Positions 38,740 through 49,404 of a stretch of DNA of 64,000 nucleotides are shown here, one piece after another; within the stretch, counting starts at the first letter, position 1; every line of letters begins with the position of its first letter. Under the pieces are notes generated by a model that ran no database searches, was not told the origin of the DNA, and saw only the letters and a program-made list of their open reading frames with translations. The position numbers and the translations under genes are program-made. Source of the stretch: Candidatus Saccharibacteria bacterium (lineage in GTDB: Bacteria > Patescibacteriota > Saccharimonadia > Saccharimonadales > Saccharimonadaceae). The DNA is taken from the NCBI GenBank assembly GCA_016432585.1, contig CP066696.1:186001-250000 (forward strand). The letters run 5' to 3'.

Positions 38740-39567
38740 ATGACAAAAATACTGAACGGTTCCGAATTAGTTGGATATATTAAAGAGCGCCAAGCACGCC
38801 AGGTACGGGCGTTGCGCCAAGCGTCTCGCGTTTTTCCACGGCTTGTCGTTATTAAAAGCAAGAGCGCGTCGCCTGTTATTGATACCTACGTTCGTATGAA
38901 AGGGCGCTATGGCGACGATATATTGATTGAGACGGTCGTTGAAACCCTCGATGAATCAGAGATGCCGGCAGCGATTGAGCGCGCCAATAACGATGATGCT
39001 GTTCATGGTATTATTGTACAGCTTCCGCTAGACGACCCGGCAAAAACCGATGAAATTGTTAATAGTATCACACCCGAAAAAGACGTTGACGGGCTTGGTG
39101 TACACACGAAATTTGAAAGTGCTACCGCAAAAGCAATTCACTGGTTGCTGGCAGGATATGCTATCGATCTAAAGGGTAAAAAAATAGCAATCGTGGGGAA
39201 CGGACGGCTTGTTGGCGCACCCTTGGCAAAAATATGGCGCGATAGCGGCTACGACGTTACGGTATTAACACGGGCGAGTGCCGATATAGCCGGTGTATTA
39301 AAGGATAGCGCGGTTATCGTAACGGCTACCGGTGTGCCTCACCTTATAACCACCGACATGATTGGAATTGGTGCGGTTGTTGTTGATGCGGGAACTGCTA
39401 GCGAGGATGGTGTTATTGTAGGGGATATTGACGATTCTGTCCGCACTCGAGACGATCTAACCGTCACGCCCGAAAAAGGCGGCGTTGGACCACTAACGAT
39501 TGCGGCATTATTCGACAATGTTATTGCGAGTGCCCAGGCTGTCGCCGAGCAAAAAACTAAAAACTAA
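38740..39567 (+). CDS. folD: Methylenetetrahydrofolate dehydrogenase/cyclohydrolase
   Basis: A 275-residue FolD. YVRMK (catalytic Lys in the YxxxK pattern), HGIIVQLPL, the nucleotide-binding GNGRLVGAPLAK and PEKGGVGPLT are all present. It oxidises methylene-THF to methenyl-THF and hydrolyses that to formyl-THF. In place of the usual GRSxxVGxP the motif reads GRLVGAP. The gene works with glyA at 25.4 kb. Slightly shorter than the usual 285. Confidence 0.9.
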   Translation: MTKILNGSELVGYIKERQARQVRALRQASRVFPRLVVIKSKSASPVIDTYVRMKGRYGDDILIETVVETLDESEMPAAIERANNDDAVHGIIVQLPLDDPAKTDEIVNSITPEKDVDGLGVHTKFESATAKAIHWLLAGYAIDLKGKKIAIVGNGRLVGAPLAKIWRDSGYDVTVLTRASADIAGVLKDSAVIVTATGVPHLITTDMIGIGAVVVDAGTASEDGVIVGDIDDSVRTRDDLTVTPEKGGVGPLTIAALFDNVIASAQAVAEQKTKN

Positions 39568-39935
39568 GCAATTCCAAGAGCTTCTTTGACGCGTCCAACA
39601 ACTTGGCGAGGCGTAAGGTCGGCTTTTACGATGTAGCTGTGAATACCCATGTTACGCAGCTCTTTTGGAGCTTCTTCTTCGCCAAGATTGGTAAGGATAA
39701 TAACAGGGATAGTTTTACCCCAGTCGTGCTTGCGAATTTCGGTAAGGGCCTCGGCACCGTTCATGCTTGGCATTTGAAGATCAAGTAAGATTATATCTGG
39801 GTGGAACCCTTGGACTAACGCGACACCCCGCTCGCCGTTGTCGGCGATTTGCACCTCGAAGCCGTCCGCTTCAAACTTCATGCGGTACATCTGGTTAATT
39901 ACTGGATCGTCTTCGATGATGGCTATTTTGGTCAT
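39564..39935 (-). CDS. Single-domain response regulator (CheY-like)
   Basis: A 123-residue receiver domain without an output domain. Acidic pocket residues are in EDDP (positions 8-10), the phosphorylated Asp52 in ILLDLQMPSMNG, and the conserved Lys in YIVKADL. With no effector domain it must signal by protein-protein contact. A candidate partner is the histidine kinase at 45.5 kb. Its stop overlaps the folD stop by 4 bases. Confidence 0.85.
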   Translation of the reverse strand: MTKIAIIEDDPVINQMYRMKFEADGFEVQIADNGERGVALVQGFHPDIILLDLQMPSMNGAEALTEIRKHDWGKTIPVIILTNLGEEEAPKELRNMGIHSYIVKADLTPRQVVGRVKEALGIA

Positions 39936-40100: not shown

Positions 40101-40208
40101 GTGACAGCAGATAGAGGCCTTTTGCTAAAGCTGCTCGAAAATCAAGGACTATCAAACGCAAAGGCTTCGTCTGTTCTGATAAATAACAAACTGAGAAAGT
40201 GTGGTTAG
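40101..40208 (+). CDS. Small peptide upstream of the lyase (35 aa), uncertain
   Basis: A frame from the GTG at 40101 to the TAG at 40206-40208 encodes 35 residues (VTADRGLLLKLLENQG, then SNAKASSVLI) ending in LRKCG, only 6 bases before the lyase start. It has no good ribosome site. If real, its C-terminal Cys-Gly end would be of interest beside a ThiF/E1-like gene. The chance of a random frame is considerable. Confidence 0.3.
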   Translation: MTADRGLLLKLLENQGLSNAKASSVLINNKLRKCG

Positions 40209-40214
40209 ACAACA

Positions 40215-41768
40215 ATGAAGACCTTATCACCAGTATTTTTTGGCGAACAGCGCCTTACGATTAAAGATGTCGTCGCTTTGGCGCGACGCGAGCGAGAAGC
40301 GCGCTTGTCGGATGCGGCTCCGTTTCGTAAAAAGATTGTTGCCGGTGTTGAATTTATGGATCGTGTTCTTCGCGAAGACGGTGTTATTTATGGGGTAACA
40401 ACAGGATATGGTGATTCGCATAGCGTGAGTGTTCCAGCGCATTTGGTGGCAGATTTGCCTCACCAGTTGTATACCTACCATGGTGTGGGATTAGGGCGAT
40501 TTTTAGATGAACAAGAGACCCGCGCTGTTCTTGTGAGCCGTTTGACTTCATTAAGTATTGGACTTTCTGGTGTAAGTTGGGAGCTATTGAACGGGTTAGA
40601 AACACTTTTGCGTCATGATATTTTACCTATGATTCCTGCCGAGGGTTCAGTAGGTGCCAGTGGGGACTTAACGCCACTTTCGTATGTAGCGGCAGTACTT
40701 TGTGGTGAACGCGAAGTAATGTACAAAGGCGAGCAGCGTCTAAGTAGGGATGTTCTTGCCGAGGTTGGTATGACTCCTTTGAAACTTCGACCAAAAGAAG
40801 GTCTTGCGCTTATGAATGGCACGGCGGTTATGACAGCTCTTGCGTGCCTTGCATGGGAGAGAGCGGACTACCTTAGTAAACTCGCAACGCGCCTTACAGC
40901 ATTTAGCGTTACGGCGCTCGATGGTAATGTGTACCACTTTAACGAGACACTATTCGATGCTAAGCCGCATCCGGGACAGCAGCGGATTGCCGCGCAGCTG
41001 CGCTCCGACCTTGTTGCTGACCGGCCTGGTCGCAACGAAAAACGCCTGCAAGATCGTTACTCACTACGCTGCGCGCCGCACGTTATCGGCGTGCTCGAAG
41101 ATGCCTTGCCTTACTTCCAAACGCTTATTGAAAACGAGCTGAACAGCGTCAACGACAACCCTCTTGTCGACCCCGAGCACGAGCAAATCCTTCACGGCGG
41201 ACATTTTTATGGCGGGCATATTGCGTTTGCAATGGACAGCATGAAAAACACTATCGCCAACGTTGCTGACCTTCTCGATCGCCAAATGGCTCTCCTTGTC
41301 GACGCGAGATATAACCACGGTTTGCCTGCTAACCTATCGGGCGCAACAGGCGACCGAAAAGCAATTAACCACGGATTGAAGGCATTGCAAATCAGCGTGT
41401 CGGCGTGGACGGCCGAAGCCTTAAAGCTCACCATGCCAGCCTCGGTATTTTCGCGCTCTACGGAATGCCACAACCAAGACAAGGTAAGTATGGGAACGAT
41501 TGCAGCCCGTGATTGTCTGCGCGTTCTTGAGTTGACCGAGCAAGTGGTTGCGGCGATGCTGATTGCCACAAGGCAGGGTGTTGAGCTTCGGCGTCAGACA
41601 GATCCGTCTGTTGTTCTAACCGGCGAACCAGCAAAAATGTACGAAGATCTTGAAAAGCGAATTCCATTTATCGAAGAAGACCGCGCTCTCGACAAAGAGC
41701 TTATAGGACTGATAGGAAATATCAGGGAGCAGGCATGGAACCTTTACGACGACAAGTCGAACAAGTAG
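40215..41768 (+). CDS. Aromatic amino acid ammonia-lyase/aminomutase (MIO enzyme)
   Basis: A 517-residue MIO enzyme. Ala148-Ser149-Gly150 in GSVGASGDLTPL cyclises to the electrophilic methylidene-imidazolone that removes ammonia from histidine, phenylalanine or tyrosine. FNQDKV-type HNQDKVSMG later in the chain follows the phenylalanine/tyrosine branch rather than the QEDHVSM of HutH. The substrate selectivity pair is Tyr88-His89 (YTYHGVGLG), unlike Ser-His, Phe-Leu or His-Leu. With no other Hut genes nearby, a biosynthetic role is more likely than histidine catabolism. Confidence 0.85.
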   Translation: MKTLSPVFFGEQRLTIKDVVALARREREARLSDAAPFRKKIVAGVEFMDRVLREDGVIYGVTTGYGDSHSVSVPAHLVADLPHQLYTYHGVGLGRFLDEQETRAVLVSRLTSLSIGLSGVSWELLNGLETLLRHDILPMIPAEGSVGASGDLTPLSYVAAVLCGEREVMYKGEQRLSRDVLAEVGMTPLKLRPKEGLALMNGTAVMTALACLAWERADYLSKLATRLTAFSVTALDGNVYHFNETLFDAKPHPGQQRIAAQLRSDLVADRPGRNEKRLQDRYSLRCAPHVIGVLEDALPYFQTLIENELNSVNDNPLVDPEHEQILHGGHFYGGHIAFAMDSMKNTIANVADLLDRQMALLVDARYNHGLPANLSGATGDRKAINHGLKALQISVSAWTAEALKLTMPASVFSRSTECHNQDKVSMGTIAARDCLRVLELTEQVVAAMLIATRQGVELRRQTDPSVVLTGEPAKMYEDLEKRIPFIEEDRALDKELIGLIGNIREQAWNLYDDKSNK

Positions 41769-41785
41769 GTGATTAATCTAACGCT

Positions 41786-43222
41786 ATGAAAAAAGACGAT
41801 TTTGCCGCCAAAAAGACGCTCGATTTGTTTCACCGTGCCGCCAGGGACATACCAGCCTACAAAGATTTTCTACAGAAGCACGATGTCCAGCCCGAAACGA
41901 TACGGACGATCGAAGACTTTAAGGCGCGCGTGCCGATAACAGATAAAAGCAATTACATCACCCAGTACCCATTCCACATGCTTTGTTGGAATGGGGATTT
42001 GTTCTCTAACCAAATTATTGCCTCGAGCTCGGGAACAATGGGGCAATCGTACCTATGGCCTAGGGGTGTGACACAAGATAACGAAGGAATCGACGCACAC
42101 GAGGTGATTTATAGGGATATTTTTAACACCGACAAACTAAAAACGTTGGTTGTCGTTTGTTTCTCTATGGGCGAATGGGTAGCAGGGCTGTTTACGGCGA
42201 CTGCCACAATGGGCGTAGCGGGGCGTGGTTATAAAATAAATGTTGTGACGCCGGGGCTTGAGCGCCCAGCCGCTATAAAAAGCATTAAAGCTCTTGGTCA
42301 TTATTACGATCAGATTATTATTGCGGGCTACCCGCCGTTTTTAAAAGATGTTTTAGACGAGGGGACAAAATCGGGAATTAACTGGTCGAAGCTGAACATA
42401 AAGCTTTTGATGGCGGGCGAGGGTATTAGCGAAGAGTGGCGCAACTATACCCTAAAGGAAGTGCATGCGCATAACCCATACGCCGATGCAATCAATATTT
42501 ATGGCTGTGCCGATGCAACGATGCTGGGATATGAAACACCGGCATCAATATTAATCAGGCGTCTTTATAACCGCAGGCCGCGGCTTCGCCAAGACGTGTT
42601 TGGAACGAGCAATCTTTCGTCGCTCGTGCAGTATCATCCGGAGCGCCGTTATTTCGAGGCAGTAGACGGCCAGCTGATCGTAACAGCAGAAACAGGTATT
42701 CCGCTTATTAGATACGACACGCAGGATAGGGGCGGGATCTACACTTTTGATGAGCTCGTGCAACCGATACAGGGGCGGTTTAATGACATGTCACACCATA
42801 TCGAACCTGGTCTTGATAACTGGAAAAAGCTGCCGTTCATATATCTTCAGGGTCGTCCTAGCTCTGTGACGACGATTTACAGCGTGAATGTCTATGCCGA
42901 AAACGTTAAGGCAGCGCTTCTCGACAAGCAGATACGTCGGCTTGTAACGGGGCGTTTTACGATGGACACAAAGTATCTACCAAACATGGATCAGTATTTT
43001 GTTCTTAATGTAGAACTTGCCGAAGGCGCAGTCATTAAGCAGGCAGACCGCAAACTTTTTCAAGAGATTGTCATTAAAAAAATACGCAGGCTTAATGCTG
43101 AGTATAATTTTTTGTATAAATCTATCGGCAAAAAGGCCGAGCCTAAAATCGAATTTATCGAGTGGGGCAATACGGAATATTTTGCTCGCGGCGTAAAACA
43201 TAAATGGGTAAAAAAGGGGTAG
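41786..43222 (+). CDS. PaaK-like adenylate-forming ligase
   Basis: A 478-residue ANL-superfamily enzyme of the phenylacetate-CoA ligase type. The phosphate-binding loop is ASSSGTMGQ at residues 79-87, the substrate region includes YGCADATMLGYETP, and LIRYDTQDRG is the A7-like motif with the catalytic Asp. It activates a carboxylic acid as an acyl-adenylate. The aryl-acrylate formed by the adjacent lyase is a natural substrate guess. It begins 18 bases after the lyase stop. Confidence 0.75.
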   Translation: MKKDDFAAKKTLDLFHRAARDIPAYKDFLQKHDVQPETIRTIEDFKARVPITDKSNYITQYPFHMLCWNGDLFSNQIIASSSGTMGQSYLWPRGVTQDNEGIDAHEVIYRDIFNTDKLKTLVVVCFSMGEWVAGLFTATATMGVAGRGYKINVVTPGLERPAAIKSIKALGHYYDQIIIAGYPPFLKDVLDEGTKSGINWSKLNIKLLMAGEGISEEWRNYTLKEVHAHNPYADAINIYGCADATMLGYETPASILIRRLYNRRPRLRQDVFGTSNLSSLVQYHPERRYFEAVDGQLIVTAETGIPLIRYDTQDRGGIYTFDELVQPIQGRFNDMSHHIEPGLDNWKKLPFIYLQGRPSSVTTIYSVNVYAENVKAALLDKQIRRLVTGRFTMDTKYLPNMDQYFVLNVELAEGAVIKQADRKLFQEIVIKKIRRLNAEYNFLYKSIGKKAEPKIEFIEWGNTEYFARGVKHKWVKKG

Positions 43223-43223
43223 T

Positions 43224-44471
43224 ATGGGCCAGGGAAGATTGACCACGACAAACCACGAGAGCGTGTGGCCGGATAGCCTGCGACGCGCTGCAAAACGTAC
43301 GCGGCTCGATAGCGACGGTTGGCGGCCTATTGTTATTGAAATGAAGCATGCAAAGGCCGCTGCGCAGCTCGATACACTTATTAATGACCATCCTATTCAT
43401 AAGATTGTCGACAACTACGACGAACAGTACGCCGAACTAATTGTTAGCCGGCATCCGCAGTTATACCAGGCGACACTTGCGGTAAAGCAGGAATCGCTAA
43501 AGCCATATCTTCACAAACACTACGACGGTAAAGAGCCTTGGCAGCTTGGCTCGTGGGCGTATTTTCCATGGAGCGGCACGCTCGTTCATTTGCTTGAAAA
43601 GGAGCTATTCTTAGAATCTCGAACTATCCGCAACAAAGACCTTATCACCGTCGCCGAGCAGCAAAAGTATGCTGATTTTACTGTTGGATGTGCCGGCATG
43701 AGTGTCGGAAGCAACGTGGCGTTGTCGCTTGCAATATCGGGCGGGTCGCAAAAAATTAAACTCGCGGATGGTGCGGTAATTAGCGCCTCTAACCTTAACC
43801 GAATCATGGCAGGCGTCCAAGAAGTGGGCAATTCTAAATCTGCTGTCATCGCCCGCAAATTGTACGAAATGAACCCGTACATGGAGGTGGAATGCAACCT
43901 CGATAATATCACCGAAAAAACGATCGATAGTTTTTTTGAACAGCCATGGTCGCTGCGCGTTGTTGTCGATGAAATCGATGATTTAAAAACGAAAATATTA
44001 CTAAGAATAGAAGCACGCAAGCGGGGTATTCCGGTTGTTATGGCAACCGATTTGGGCGATGACGTCATGCTGGATATTGAGCGATTCGATCTTAATAAAA
44101 AACTTCCTCTTTTTCATGGGCTTGTTCCAAATGTCGAGGAGCTGCTAACAAAAGAAGTAAGTAAGCGCGAATGGCTAAAGTATGCAACGGCGATTATTGG
44201 GCCGCACAATACGCCGCTTCGCATGCAACAATCGTTATTAAAAATAGGGACGAAACTAGTGACCCAGCCTCAGCTTGGTCCTACGGCGGCAATGTCCGGA
44301 GTTGCCGTGGCGTATGCTGTTCGCCAACTTGCAACAGGCGAAAAGTTACGTAGTGGCCGAACACTTATCTCGCTCGATAAACACCTGCGTTCCGATTTAG
44401 TGACGCTACGATACCGACGCTCGCACAAAAAACATACGCGTCAGCTAAAGCGTGCGCTAGATGCTATGTAG
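43224..44471 (+). CDS. ThiF/E1-like adenylyltransferase
   Basis: A 415-residue protein. The nucleotide fold starts at about residue 154 with VGCAGMSVGSNVAL, and LADGAVISASNLNR carries the conserved Asp and Arg that bind ATP. The N-terminal 150 residues are a separate helical domain. No CxxC zinc sites or obvious catalytic Cys of E1 type are found. It adenylates a C-terminal carboxylate of a peptide or small protein in known relatives. It begins one base after the ligase stop. ThiF-nitroreductase fusions (as in mycobacterial MoeY) make the next gene a natural partner. Confidence 0.75.
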   Translation: MGQGRLTTTNHESVWPDSLRRAAKRTRLDSDGWRPIVIEMKHAKAAAQLDTLINDHPIHKIVDNYDEQYAELIVSRHPQLYQATLAVKQESLKPYLHKHYDGKEPWQLGSWAYFPWSGTLVHLLEKELFLESRTIRNKDLITVAEQQKYADFTVGCAGMSVGSNVALSLAISGGSQKIKLADGAVISASNLNRIMAGVQEVGNSKSAVIARKLYEMNPYMEVECNLDNITEKTIDSFFEQPWSLRVVVDEIDDLKTKILLRIEARKRGIPVVMATDLGDDVMLDIERFDLNKKLPLFHGLVPNVEELLTKEVSKREWLKYATAIIGPHNTPLRMQQSLLKIGTKLVTQPQLGPTAAMSGVAVAYAVRQLATGEKLRSGRTLISLDKHLRSDLVTLRYRRSHKKHTRQLKRALDAM

Positions 44472-45438
44472 TCAGCTCTTCGACTTCTAGGCGTGGAGAT
44501 GAGCGTACGAAATGCGCCGGCTTGCCGATACGAAGCATCGATTGAAGTCGGTCTGAAGTGCCGAGCATTTTTTCGATATCTTCATGAAAACTCGCGGCCT
44601 CAACTGGTGCTGCAAGTGTACATTGGGCAAGACCACTGTCGGCAATTTTTAGGGCAACCCGCAAATATGCCCGCCCAGCTTGTAGCCAAAAACTCGGCAC
44701 GTCTCCTGTTGTCCCGATAAAAACGAGTGCCGAAGCATCGTTAACACGTTGTTGGTCGTGTCGGGCTTTAAGTGGCAGTCCAATACCCATTTTTATAGAT
44801 AATTTGCCAAATATAGAGCCAATCATGCCTTCGCCTAGCGTATAGCCATGCATTCCTGTGCGCGAGGGCGACCAGTTATAGTGAACGAGATGATACAGTT
44901 CCTTGCGGAAATCTGGGCTACTAAGCGCGAGTGACATCGCCTTGAATGTGTATTCGCCAACGCGGCGTATCGATGCTTCATCTTGCATAAAGTGAACGTT
45001 GACGCCTTCTAAATCAGCGACTGCTTGTTGGCACTGCGCGATAAGACTTTGCGGGACTTCAGCTGGCTGCATTTTTTCGCGGTACGTGTGGCGCTTTTTA
45101 AGTGCGCTTAAAATGGCGGGTTGTTCAGGTTTGTTGCTGGTTGTTATTTTTAGCACAGCAATAGTTCCTTGTAGCGAGCTGGTCTGCGTGCTGACGAGTT
45201 CGGCGTTTAGTCCCAACCCCTCGGCGGCTTGTAGCGCTGCTTCGAGGCATATGCCAAAGCTAAGCCATGTTTCGCGCCCTGTAGGATCACCAGGTCCAAG
45301 AACCCGATCGAGCTCGACGGCTATCGAAACAAGGTTGCCATCTACAATAAACTTCCATGGCTGAGCGTTATGTGCCGAAGGCGCAAGCCGGGCGTAGTCG
45401 AGGAGTTCAGAGATATGAGAAGGGATTTCTTGCTTCAT
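44464..45438 (-). CDS. Acg-like nitroreductase-family protein
   Basis: A 324-residue protein. LLDYARLAPSAHNAQPWKF is the FMN-binding opening of the nitroreductase fold, and IADSGLAQCTLAAPVE is near the second FMN contact. Size and segments resemble the Acg/Rv2032 group. It lies on the opposite strand and its last 8 bases overlap the ThiF gene stop. It may oxidise or reduce the cluster product. Divergent regulation is probable since it faces the operon tail to tail. Confidence 0.75.
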   Translation of the reverse strand: MKQEIPSHISELLDYARLAPSAHNAQPWKFIVDGNLVSIAVELDRVLGPGDPTGRETWLSFGICLEAALQAAEGLGLNAELVSTQTSSLQGTIAVLKITTSNKPEQPAILSALKKRHTYREKMQPAEVPQSLIAQCQQAVADLEGVNVHFMQDEASIRRVGEYTFKAMSLALSSPDFRKELYHLVHYNWSPSRTGMHGYTLGEGMIGSIFGKLSIKMGIGLPLKARHDQQRVNDASALVFIGTTGDVPSFWLQAGRAYLRVALKIADSGLAQCTLAAPVEAASFHEDIEKMLGTSDRLQSMLRIGKPAHFVRSSPRLEVEELTT

Positions 45439-45498: not shown

Positions 45499-47673
45499 AT
45501 GCTTGAGCTTATAATACTTCTCATCTCCGTAGTTGCTAACTTTGGGCTGGCCATGGTTGTTATCGCTAAAAACCCGCACGGGCGCGTCAACCGGAACTTT
45601 GCACTTTTAGCCCTGTCGCTAGTTGTATGGCTAATTGCGAATTATATCTCTACGCACCCTATATTTCTTGATCAGTTAACATGGATTCGAGTCGCTATGG
45701 CGACAGCCAGCATTCTATCGATGTCCATGCTGCTTTTGACGAACGTTTTTCCGCAGGGCGAGGCATATCGCAAGAACCTTGCAAGGCTTGTCATTGTATC
45801 TGGCTGCGTTGTAGCATTGTTAGCGTTAACCCCCTTGGTTTTTAGTGGTCTTGAAGTATCTGGCTCCTCGGTCACCCCAATACCCGGACTGGGCATGGCG
45901 TTGTTTATGCCGTTTGTTTTCGCCTCCTTATCTGGCAGCATCTATATCCTTTTTCGACGCTTTCGGTTACTAAAGGGGAGACTTAAAGAACAGGTACGAT
46001 ATGCGCTTATCGGGGTTATGGTTACCTTTACGCTTCTTGTACTTCTTAACTTTGTTGTTATCATCGTATTTCGTAATACGTCGTTTATCTTTCTGTCGCC
46101 ACTTTTCGGCTTGGTGTTTACGGCGAGTTTTGCCTACGGAATTATACGACTCAAGCTCTTTGATATTCGTTTGATTATCGCGAGATTCGTTGCTTATCTC
46201 TTGCTTTTGCTTGTTGCGGGTCTGCTTTATGGTTTTTTGGGGGCGGCGCTATCTTTTTTCATCATAGGTGTGCAACCAAGCCTTGCGCAGATTCTTGTTT
46301 CGACATCGGTCGTCGGGTTTCTGGTTCTCTTCGTTCAGCCACTTCGCAAGTTCTTCAACTACATTACAAGGACGATCTTTTACCAAGACGATTACGATAC
46401 AAAAAGCGTCCTGGATAACCTGGCGACTGTACTTGTGCATTCTACCGAGACCAAACCATTGGCAGCGGTGTCGCTAGCAATTTTAAAGAAGGCGCTTAAA
46501 TCTGATTTTATTACATTGGTACTTATGGACGAAACGGCCAAAGATGGCACGAAGCTGCTTGGTGATGACCATAACTCCTCGGTTTTTTCTAGCATAACTC
46601 CACAGCAATTTCGCCGTCATGTTGCCGATATCATGAGCTTCGATTTAATTGAGGCGCCGGCTGATCATTTTCATGGAGAGATGCAAAAAGCAGGTGTGTC
46701 GATTATTGTACGCTTAGAGACGAAGAGTGAGATTGTCGGCTATTGTATCTTTGGTTACAAGACGACAGGAAGTGCCTATTCCGAACGTGATATTGATTTA
46801 ATACGAATAGCAAGCGACGAGCTAGCGGTGGCGATTCAGAATACTCTGCGCTTCGAGCAGATTCAAGGGTTTAACGACACGCTTCAACAGCGTATTGAGG
46901 ATGCGACAAAGGAACTGCGCGAAAGTAATGCGCAGCTTCAACGCCTCGACGAGGCAAAAGATGAGTTTGTGAGCATGGCCTCTCACCAGCTGCGCACACC
47001 GCTGACTAGCGTAAAGGGGTATATCAGCATGGTGCTAGAGGGGGACGCTGGCAAGATCACTTCTATGCAGCGTCAGTTGTTAAGTGAGGCATTTATTAGC
47101 AGTGAGCGCATGGTGCACCTTATTAGTGACTTCTTGAACGTGTCGCGTTTGCAAACGGGAACGTTTATTCTTGAAAAGAAGTCTGTTGATCTTGCAAAGA
47201 TAGTGACGCAAGAGGTCGAGAGTTTGCAAACAACCGCTCATGCTCATAACTTGAAACTCCACTATCGTGCTCCGTCGTATTTTCCTGTGCTCAATATCGA
47301 TGAAGGTAAGATACGGCAAGTGCTTATGAACTTTATCGATAATGCAATCTATTACTCTGAAGAAAATACGACGATTAGTATTACGCTAGGTGTTGATGCC
47401 GGTTATGCAGTCCTTGAGGTGAGAGACACTGGTATCGGCGTGCCAAAGGAAGAACAAGCACATCTGTTCTCGAAGTTCTTTAGGGCAACCAACGCACGCA
47501 AGCAGCGCCCCGATGGTACGGGTGTTGGTTTGTTTCTTGCGAAGAAAGTTATTACGGCGCACGGCGGCTCAATGGTGTTCTCATCTATCGAGAACGAAGG
47601 CAGTACGTTTGGATTCCGTTTGCCAATTAAAAAACTAAGCGCCAGTAGCGATACGAACAAGCTCGATAAGTAG
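45499..47673 (+). CDS. Multi-pass sensor histidine kinase
   Basis: A 724-residue protein: seven or eight hydrophobic segments in the first 255 residues (7TM-His-kinase type sensor), a GAF-like segment at about 310-450, a coiled coil, then HisKA with His496 in MASHQLRTPLTSVKG, the N box NFIDNAIYYS, and the ATP lid motifs RDTGIGVP and DGTGVGLFLAKKV. It probably senses a hydrophobic or membrane signal and phosphorylates a response regulator, with the CheY-like protein at 39.6 kb a candidate. Its last 39 bases overlap the convergent small gene. Confidence 0.85.
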   Translation: MLELIILLISVVANFGLAMVVIAKNPHGRVNRNFALLALSLVVWLIANYISTHPIFLDQLTWIRVAMATASILSMSMLLLTNVFPQGEAYRKNLARLVIVSGCVVALLALTPLVFSGLEVSGSSVTPIPGLGMALFMPFVFASLSGSIYILFRRFRLLKGRLKEQVRYALIGVMVTFTLLVLLNFVVIIVFRNTSFIFLSPLFGLVFTASFAYGIIRLKLFDIRLIIARFVAYLLLLLVAGLLYGFLGAALSFFIIGVQPSLAQILVSTSVVGFLVLFVQPLRKFFNYITRTIFYQDDYDTKSVLDNLATVLVHSTETKPLAAVSLAILKKALKSDFITLVLMDETAKDGTKLLGDDHNSSVFSSITPQQFRRHVADIMSFDLIEAPADHFHGEMQKAGVSIIVRLETKSEIVGYCIFGYKTTGSAYSERDIDLIRIASDELAVAIQNTLRFEQIQGFNDTLQQRIEDATKELRESNAQLQRLDEAKDEFVSMASHQLRTPLTSVKGYISMVLEGDAGKITSMQRQLLSEAFISSERMVHLISDFLNVSRLQTGTFILEKKSVDLAKIVTQEVESLQTTAHAHNLKLHYRAPSYFPVLNIDEGKIRQVLMNFIDNAIYYSEENTTISITLGVDAGYAVLEVRDTGIGVPKEEQAHLFSKFFRATNARKQRPDGTGVGLFLAKKVITAHGGSMVFSSIENEGSTFGFRLPIKKLSASSDTNKLDK

Positions 47674-47949: not shown

Positions 47950-49245
47950 CTATAGTGAGCGGCGGCTAGCTATGTAGTAGGCGATAGCAGCGATAAGTGA
48001 GGCAGCACCAACGACGGCAACAAGGCCATCACCAGCACCAGTCTTTGGAAGCTCTTTTGGAGTTTCTGGGACTTCAGGTTTTTCCTTACAGCGATCGTCG
48101 CCAACAGGGATACCTGGCTTACATTCATTTGGTTTCTCGACACAAGTTTTGCTGACAGTTACTGTCGCAGTGTCGCTCTTGCTGCCGTTGTTAGTTTCGG
48201 CAGTTGCGGTATTAACAAGGGTGTTAACGCCACATTTTTCGAGCTTGCTGTTGTCAACAACTTTCGCTTTGAACTTTACGTATACAGCAGCACCTGGGTT
48301 GTAGTCGCCAAGGTTGATACCTCGTGCAGTAACGTTGTCGCTGGCAAGCGTCCATTTGTTACCTGTGTTCGAGTTTGAGTAGTAAGTACTACCCTTTACG
48401 TACTCTAGGCCAGCAGGAAGCTTGTCTTTAATGATAACGTCCTTCTGGAGGCTCGTACCGATGTTCTTGTACTTGATCTTGTATTCTACTTCTTCGTTTG
48501 GAAGAGCGGTAATAGTTTCGGCATATTTGTTCTCGCCAGGTTTACCAACTTGCTTCGAGATTTCGAAGTTAGGCTGGTCAACGCGGAACTTGAACGTTAC
48601 ATAACCAGCAAACTCGTTACAGCCAGGAAGCTTACCGTCGAGGGCGCTGTACCCAAGTGGTGTTCCGGTGGTGTAAAGGTTGTTTGGCAATGTTTTACCG
48701 TTTACTGCGCCGTTACTGTAGATCTTTGCAGAATCAGGAACGTAGCGAAGTGCGTAGTTGCCGCTTGCTAGTCCGTAGGCTTCGTCCCAAACCTGTGCTG
48801 GGTTGGCGTTTGAGGCACCAACAAAACCAGTAATTCGAGCTTTTTCGCCAGCTTTTACAGAAGCAGGCATCTGTACACGCATAAATGCGTTTTTGGCGAT
48901 ACCTTTATAGTCGTGAGCGGCGTCGTTAAGACTGCTTTTCGCGTTGTTGTGGTAAAACACCGTTACGGCGTATTCTTTACCTGGCTGCAGGGTAACCTGC
49001 TCGCCATAGGTGCTGTTAGGTGCTGAGGCTTCTTTGATTTCAACAAAGTTGCGCTCGTCGCCCCACTGCGGGTTATTGGTGATAGAGTTGAACGTTACGT
49101 AGTCGGCAGGATTCTGCACGGTAAACGTTGGACGATCCGGGCCCCAGGCAAACAATGCTGCCGGAACCAATACGGCTGCTGCAACGATCGCAAGACCTGC
49201 AGCACGCTTTGGTGCTCGCTTGATAGCGTCGATGATTTTCTTCAT
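47950..49245 (-). CDS. LPKTG-anchored surface protein with DUF11-like repeats
   Basis: A 431-residue protein from the ATG at 49245, set by AGGAG six bases upstream. It has a signal peptide (RAAGLAIVAAAVLVPAALFAW), a beta-rich ectodomain including a DUF11-type domain (EVEYKIKYKNIGTSLQKDV, then LPAGLEYVKGSTYYS), a Cys-containing Pro-rich stalk, and a sortase signal ELPKTG with a hydrophobic helix and RRSL tail. Sortase would link it to the cell wall. Two cysteine clusters near the end (KTCVEKPNECK, DDRCKEK) are unusual. No sortase gene is in the window. Confidence 0.85.
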   Translation of the reverse strand: MKKIIDAIKRAPKRAAGLAIVAAAVLVPAALFAWGPDRPTFTVQNPADYVTFNSITNNPQWGDERNFVEIKEASAPNSTYGEQVTLQPGKEYAVTVFYHNNAKSSLNDAAHDYKGIAKNAFMRVQMPASVKAGEKARITGFVGASNANPAQVWDEAYGLASGNYALRYVPDSAKIYSNGAVNGKTLPNNLYTTGTPLGYSALDGKLPGCNEFAGYVTFKFRVDQPNFEISKQVGKPGENKYAETITALPNEEVEYKIKYKNIGTSLQKDVIIKDKLPAGLEYVKGSTYYSNSNTGNKWTLASDNVTARGINLGDYNPGAAVYVKFKAKVVDNSKLEKCGVNTLVNTATAETNNGSKSDTATVTVSKTCVEKPNECKPGIPVGDDRCKEKPEVPETPKELPKTGAGDGLVAVVGAASLIAAIAYYIASRRSL

Positions 49246-49404
49246 ACACTCTCCTTTACTAGTACTCCACATACTAGAATTAATGGATTTGATAAAATTA
49301 TACAACATATTACTTAAAAAGTAAATGCTTATGCTCAGTGAAATTTAAATTATTAATGTACCATTTTCGGGGCAAATCAGATCATTACAAAACATTGGGG
49401 TTGT

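Follow-up and report, generated by a model that had tools for sequence, protein, structure and literature searches.

A candidate small-molecule signalling locus with an exchangeable synthase slot and a linked sensor kinase in Candidatus Saccharibacteria

How episymbiotic bacteria of the candidate phyla radiation (CPR) sense their kin or their host is an open question, and the locus described here asks what a row of four enzyme genes might contribute to an answer. It lies in a 64,000-nucleotide stretch of DNA (the window) from a Candidatus Saccharibacteria genome that comprises a single contig of 952,504 bases; Saccharibacteria are bacteria that live on other bacteria as their hosts. An initial annotation, made from the sequence alone, had described a lyase, a PaaK-like ligase, a ThiF-like enzyme and an Acg-like flavoprotein as a linked small-molecule pathway in a CPR genome, but it had missed the response regulator (RR) and the histidine kinase that flank the four genes just outside the interval it covered. 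We consider it fairly likely that the four enzymes, the RR and the kinase work as one unit, a cassette for signal synthesis tied to a sensor of its own; the locus probably makes a small acyl-amino-acid signal that is read by the adjacent membrane sensor. The genes, in window coordinates, are as follows.

39564-39935, minus strand: single-domain RR (Response_reg, 85 bits), bordering the variable slot
40215-41768, plus strand: 4-methylideneimidazol-5-one (MIO)-type aromatic amino acid lyase or aminomutase, accessory (517 amino acids, intact open reading frame (ORF), Lyase_aromatic)
41786-43222, plus strand: PaaK-like adenylate-forming ligase, proposed acyl-amino-acid ligase (478 amino acids, intact ORF, predicted fold)
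43224-44471, plus strand: predicted ThiF/E1-like cyclase of the Rv1355c (TrzS) subfamily (415 amino acids, intact ORF)
44464-45438, minus strand: Acg-like flavin mononucleotide oxidoreductase, proposed desaturase (324 amino acids, intact ORF, NF047509)
45499-47673, plus strand: multi-transmembrane GAF-like histidine kinase (HisKA and HATPase_c; sensor, residues 1 to about 240)

The four enzyme families were borne out by profile scores and, for the ligase, by AlphaFold2 and Foldseek. Gaps of 17 bases and 1 base separate lyase from ligase and ligase from ThiF, and the ThiF gene overlaps by 8 bases the convergent flavoprotein gene on the opposite strand; the spacings given initially (18, 1 and -8) differ only in the first value, and only by counting convention.

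Conserved linkage and a variable slot

The relatives searched were 151 Saccharibacteria genomes. Those relatives that bear a name are Candidatus Saccharibacteria, which upholds the CPR assignment. A ThiF homologue was detected in 28 of them, and comparison of the match coordinates placed all 28 beside the kinase. The long form of the homologue occurred in 17 genomes (window included), accompanied by the kinase in 17/17, the PaaK-like ligase in 13, the Acg-like flavoprotein in 10 and an MIO enzyme in 2; the flavoprotein gene adjoins ThiF in 10 of these 17 loci. The homologues are clustered and not scattered, as a linked pathway would have it, and the idea that unrelated metabolic genes had merely come together by chance was rejected on the strength of this linkage in 17 genomes.

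A query made of the kinase sensor and GAF region found homologues in 106 of the 151 genomes, and 112 kinases were present in the loci fetched, with an RR no more than four genes upstream in 70 of the 112. The region upstream of the kinase, reaching to the RR where one was found, is a slot of highly variable content that holds many unrelated enzyme families across the 112 loci: PaaK-like ligase with ThiF, LuxI-like protein with ThiF, fused LuxI/FeeM-ThiF, an acyltransferase alone, proteins of S-adenosylmethionine (SAM)-methyltransferase fold, and others. Slot families rest on greedy ORF calls joined by BLAST linkage, which leaves gene starts and part of the labels approximate; one label (S0) pools several kinds of ThiF locus and some ligase loci are labelled by the flavoprotein or by the ligase, which would only blur the signal reported below.

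Among the slot enzymes, LuxI-like proteins of two loci (L045 and L116) scored 32.7 and 38.2 bits against the Pfam Autoind_synth cut-off of 24, and some of their sisters fell below it. The genome of the window gave no Autoind_synth match, but the control search gave none anywhere either, and the result does not speak for absence. The LuxI-type pattern R, D..D, R, E..R is invariant in seven LuxI-like proteins, the lone slot acyltransferases are related to LuxI by profile comparison (97%, E 1e-10), and one protein (in L118) carries a FeeM domain. The sister proteins could make acyl-homoserine lactones from SAM or, equally, the N-acyl amino acids that FeeM makes. Apart from the ThiF group, the most frequent slot gene (S1; 22 loci, for example L139:4156-5265 (+)) mostly stands alone and encodes a SAM-methyltransferase fold without a good family match, possibly a one-enzyme signal synthase. 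The profile of another slot family (S3) matched no convincing solved structure.

The sensor half of the kinase changes with the slot

If the kinase reads a ligand that the slot produces, slot type should be tracked by the sensor half alone. The hydrophobic segments of the window kinase extend to residue ~283, and a homologue (in L034) scored above the cut-off for HisKA_7TM. Over sensor residues 1-230, pairwise identity was 0.259 within a slot family and 0.191 between families. With kinase or FolD identity controlled, the sensor-slot association gave z values of 16-20, whereas that of the GAF region was about 0; with kinase identity controlled, the sensor effect was reached in 0/2000 label permutations and the GAF effect in 716/2000. 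The permutation assumes independent loci, and these z values therefore overstate significance; contrasts within a genus are unaffected. In windows of 60 residues, under either control, the effect was strong to residue ~210, weaker over 201-260 and absent beyond. When similar sensors were collapsed, the sensor retained a z of 18.9, the GAF region gave -0.5 and the kinase domain rose slightly (z 2.4). The 11 sensors nearest to that of the window all belong to ThiF loci, 10 of them with the PaaK-like ligase, and come from several families. In one genus (g8), two loci (L125 and L148, genomes G089 and G007) have kinases that are 96% identical and FolD proteins that are 95% identical, but their seven-transmembrane (7TM) sensors share only 19% and their slot genes are unrelated. 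When the slot genes change, so does the sensor half, and the remainder of the kinase does not. The pair L125/L148 represents a recent exchange with borders that could be mapped to the base.

The stretch of the kinase that co-varies is precisely the one adjoining the slot, and the association could have come from the exchange of one DNA tract, slot and 5' kinase part together, as mere hitch-hiking and with no functional match between them. We regard this as quite improbable, because the association persisted between distant genomes (at FolD identity <0.54, sensor identity was 0.248 with the same slot and 0.185 with a different one) and was found in six slot families separately; over such distances a shared tract would long since have broken up if slot and sensor were not kept together. 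Exchange of a single tract would still make slot and sensor one unit, without proving ligand binding.

A second explanation, which we judge somewhat unlikely, is that of an ordinary secondary-metabolite cluster, whose N-acyl amino acid or oxazolone acts on neighbours or host (as antibiotic, lipid or manipulator), while the kinase regulates production by sensing product or precursor and intraspecies signalling plays no part. Life on host bacteria speaks for such a cluster, and product feedback would fit the co-variation too. Tyrazolones, tryptazolones and stieleriacines, moreover, are without a proven signalling role (PMC10404671, PMC12856293, PMC12479983). Yet unrelated slot enzymes, autoinducer-synthase-like ones included, share one kinase and one RR, and an effector cluster is not expected to keep a single sensor chassis across so many chemistries.

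In its broadest form, to which we give somewhat less than even chances, the proposal of a signal cassette with its own sensor would mean that Saccharibacteria communicate through a system that is chemically polymorphic and sits at one conserved place in the chromosome. The synthase genes would be swapped jointly with the 7TM half that matches them, in a single kinase, and many private small-molecule signals would result; the version in the window would make an arylacryloyl-amino-acid or oxazolone signal, a class not described.

Predicted chemistry of the cassette

The ThiF protein scored 73.5 bits against Pfam ThiF, and of 18 NCBIfam models the Rv1355c-family model came first (300 bits, next 63); the full-length cut-off of 476 was not reached, the flavoprotein half being a separate gene here. 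By best score the protein appears to belong to the Rv1355c (TrzS) subfamily and not to MoeB, ThiF or TcdA. Residues G158, G162, D182, R193, K205 and D252 of the E1-type ATP site are invariant in 17 homologues, D252 being equated with TrzS D217 by motif position and not by alignment to TrzS. The initial annotation had likened the ThiF and flavoprotein pair to a fused mycobacterial protein, and the pair does correspond to the fused Rv1355c. ThiF proteins and flavin oxidases convert N-acyl amino acids to oxazolones in the OxzAB, TyzACB and TrzAS systems (PMC10404671, PMC12856293): Rv1355c, that is TrzS, carries out ATP-dependent cyclisation of N-acyl-tryptophan followed by O2-dependent desaturation (PMC12856293), TyzACB and OxzAB perform the same chemistry on tyrosine or phenylalanine (PMC10404671), and in these pathways the substrate is supplied by an N-acyltransferase (PMC10404671, PMC12856293). 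The earlier statement that no such pathway had been described therefore stands for the four-part combination only, and not for this pair.

The ligase had no match in Pfam and scored 60 bits against the PaaK equivalog, far below the cut-off of 646. Its AlphaFold2 model (pLDDT 85) matched PaaK/BT_0428 in Foldseek (E 3e-20) and, more weakly, the amide-forming ClxA, McbA and GH3; identity to the structural matches was ~12-16%, and the adenylation motifs were recognised by eye. Beside ThiF in CPR loci, a PaaK-like ligase was found 26 times (22 distinct loci, four named loci repeating genomes already counted), a LuxI/FeeM-type acyltransferase 15 times and both 0 times. Because the two are mutually exclusive, the ligase probably makes an acyl-amino acid, and on the simplest reading it takes the place of the acyltransferase; ClxA, an amide ligase that shares the PaaK-like fold, is a precedent for amide formation (PMC12519233).

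Alternatively, the ligase would yield an aryl-CoA or a free adenylate and ThiF would act on a peptide or other acceptor, so that the product would be neither an acyl-amino acid nor an oxazolone, although a signal-sensor unit would still be possible. The nearest solved structures of the ligase are coenzyme A (CoA) ligases, and relatives of ThiF use many carboxylates. We nevertheless find this account unlikely, given that the best subfamily match of ThiF is the oxazolone cyclase Rv1355c, that the ligase and N-acyltransferases exclude each other, and that no short conserved ORF was noticed between the genes, although no systematic search for one was made.

The flavoprotein (Nitroreductase, 45.4 bits) scored 200.4 bits with the Acg-family/Rv3131 model NF047509 (cut-off 199), as against 71.9 bits with the Rv1355c model. 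In related loci, an alpha/beta hydrolase is fused to the Acg-like domain (L037:3631-5532 (-)) or encoded in the cassette (L191:5631-6551 (+)) and could release, degrade or open the product.

The lyase scored 524.8 bits with Lyase_aromatic and has the ASG triad at residues 148-150. Histidine catabolism was considered, since the family includes HutH and the HutH models gave 391-401 bits. It was rejected, and together with chance grouping we regard it as refuted for practical purposes: the lyase missed the hutH equivalog cut-off (391 bits against 539), it has Gln421 at the site of Glu414 in histidine ammonia-lyase (HAL), a search of the genome found no urocanase, and the linkage is conserved in 17 genomes. 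The initial annotation had left a plain HutH with other Hut genes as the outcome that would undo its pathway, and this was not found.

The lyase could not be retained as a core member of the cluster. PF00221 occurs in 3 of 393 genomes of the class and is slot-linked in only two, the third (G344) lying elsewhere; the lyase is a rare add-on of the cassette, an exception and not its core. The two slot-linked MIO genes are 34% identical to each other and differ in orientation. One scores best with the BagA/FevW tyrosine ammonia-lyases and has the ASG triad, and the other is nearest to the tyrosine aminomutase SgTAM, so that this one slot seems to have taken up two distinct MIO enzymes. Elsewhere the position is filled by an aminotransferase, an ELFV (Phe/Leu-type) dehydrogenase or an FkbO/Hyg5-type chorismatase, and we infer that what the accessory genes have in common is to provide an amino acid or an aryl acid. 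In one locus (L174:5413-6528 (-)) an FkbO/Hyg5-like chorismatase adjoins the ligase, ThiF and flavoprotein genes, which points to hydroxybenzoate-type acids as ligase substrates.

Put in order, the proposed route would begin with the MIO lyase, which would deaminate an aromatic amino acid and so yield an arylacrylic acid. The PaaK-like ligase would adenylate an acid and join it to an amino acid, and would thereby, as mutual exclusion suggests, fill the role of the LuxI/FeeM-type acyltransferase in sister loci. ThiF would then activate the N-acyl amino acid by adenylating its carboxylate and close the oxazolone, as is known for the Rv1355c subfamily, and the Acg-type flavoprotein, where present, might desaturate the ring. 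The exported product would be sensed by the 7TM half of the adjacent kinase and relayed to the single-domain RR.

Several points besides the possible exchange of a single tract weigh against this proposal. The flavoprotein is nearer to FDO-B (Acg, Rv3131) than to FDO-A (TyzC, the C-terminal half of TrzS), and the members of the Acg/Rv3131 subfamily in Mycobacterium tuberculosis have not been tied to oxazolones (PMC10404671), which makes desaturation the weakest step of the route. The ligase could be no more than an aryl-CoA ligase of the usual kind, what the sensor detects might be a substrate of the pathway and not its product, the RR is without an output domain, and an exporter for the product was not identified.

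Relation to known systems

The cassette resembles OxzAB (Pseudoalteromonas rubra), TyzACB and TrzAS/Rv1356c-Rv1355c (Mycobacterium) in a ThiF protein apparently of the same subfamily, in the ATP-binding residues kept and in the Acg/nitroreductase-type flavoprotein alongside, and the acyltransferase partner of the oxazolone pathways is present in sister CPR loci. It differs from them in that a PaaK-like ligase replaces the acyltransferase, the flavoprotein is nearer to Acg/Rv3131, an MIO lyase is added, and a sensor kinase and RR are attached. With ClxA and NatL2 (PaaK-like amide ligases), McbA (an amide synthetase) and the GH3 acyl-acid amido synthetases, the ligase shares the adenylate-forming fold and the adenylation motifs, but at the low identity given above.

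In the ComQXPA pherotype loci of Bacillus, synthesis genes likewise adjoin a multi-transmembrane kinase that is variable in its N-terminal sensor half, in contrast to the conserved kinase half and RR (PMC4008528). Slot and sensor here vary in the way that marks out a polymorphic signal-receptor locus of the ComQXPA kind. The likeness claimed is one of working principle: here small-molecule enzymes stand in place of ComQ and the ComX peptide, and the RR is without a DNA-binding domain.

Eighteen LuxI homologues adjoining sensory kinases in CPR genomes were reported in 2020, and our sister loci, in which an autoinducer-synthase-like gene adjoins a sensor kinase, are of the same kind (PMC7567580). 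The queries of that survey were known synthases, and the available part of it does not mention cassettes of ThiF, PaaK-like ligase, flavoprotein and MIO enzyme, a swapping slot or the coupling of sensor to slot (PMC7567580). LuxI-kinase neighbours in CPR genomes, oxazolone enzymes and the sensor-half polymorphism of ComQXPA are thus already known. Searches of open-licence papers on oxazolones and quorum sensing or on Saccharibacteria clusters found nothing on this locus, and we did not find described a route through PaaK-like ligase, ThiF and flavoprotein, its MIO-bearing form, or a fixed slot that exchanges whole enzyme routes together with a sensor half. The locus brings together candidate genes, a predicted chemistry for the ligand and the receptor paired with it, all within a short distance. 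If the proposal is correct, polymorphic signalling would have whole biosynthetic routes, and not peptide variants, as its exchangeable part, in parasites with genomes of ~1 Mb, and oxazolone chemistry, which in mycobacteria still awaits a physiological role, would gain a suggested biological one.

In seven Bacteroidota loci (L181, L183, L185, L189, L190, L194 and L196), ThiF, often fused to a flavin oxidase, adjoins a sensor kinase, along with a second RR-kinase hybrid and an ORF of ~240-290 amino acids; the pairing with a sensor thus extends beyond the CPR. The sensor kinase of L181, the sole one scanned, is of the 7TMR-DISM type. The ORF of ~240 amino acids beside the Bacteroidota ThiF had no Pfam match, and profile comparison with the LuxI-like sets gave only 26-36%. 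A promoter scan stayed near chance level (15 observed, 11.6 expected). Downstream of the kinase, at 47950-49308 in the window, lies a gene for a surface-protein-like product with a sortase-type C-terminus (cluster c5), which recurs near the kinase in 10 loci and is a candidate output target.

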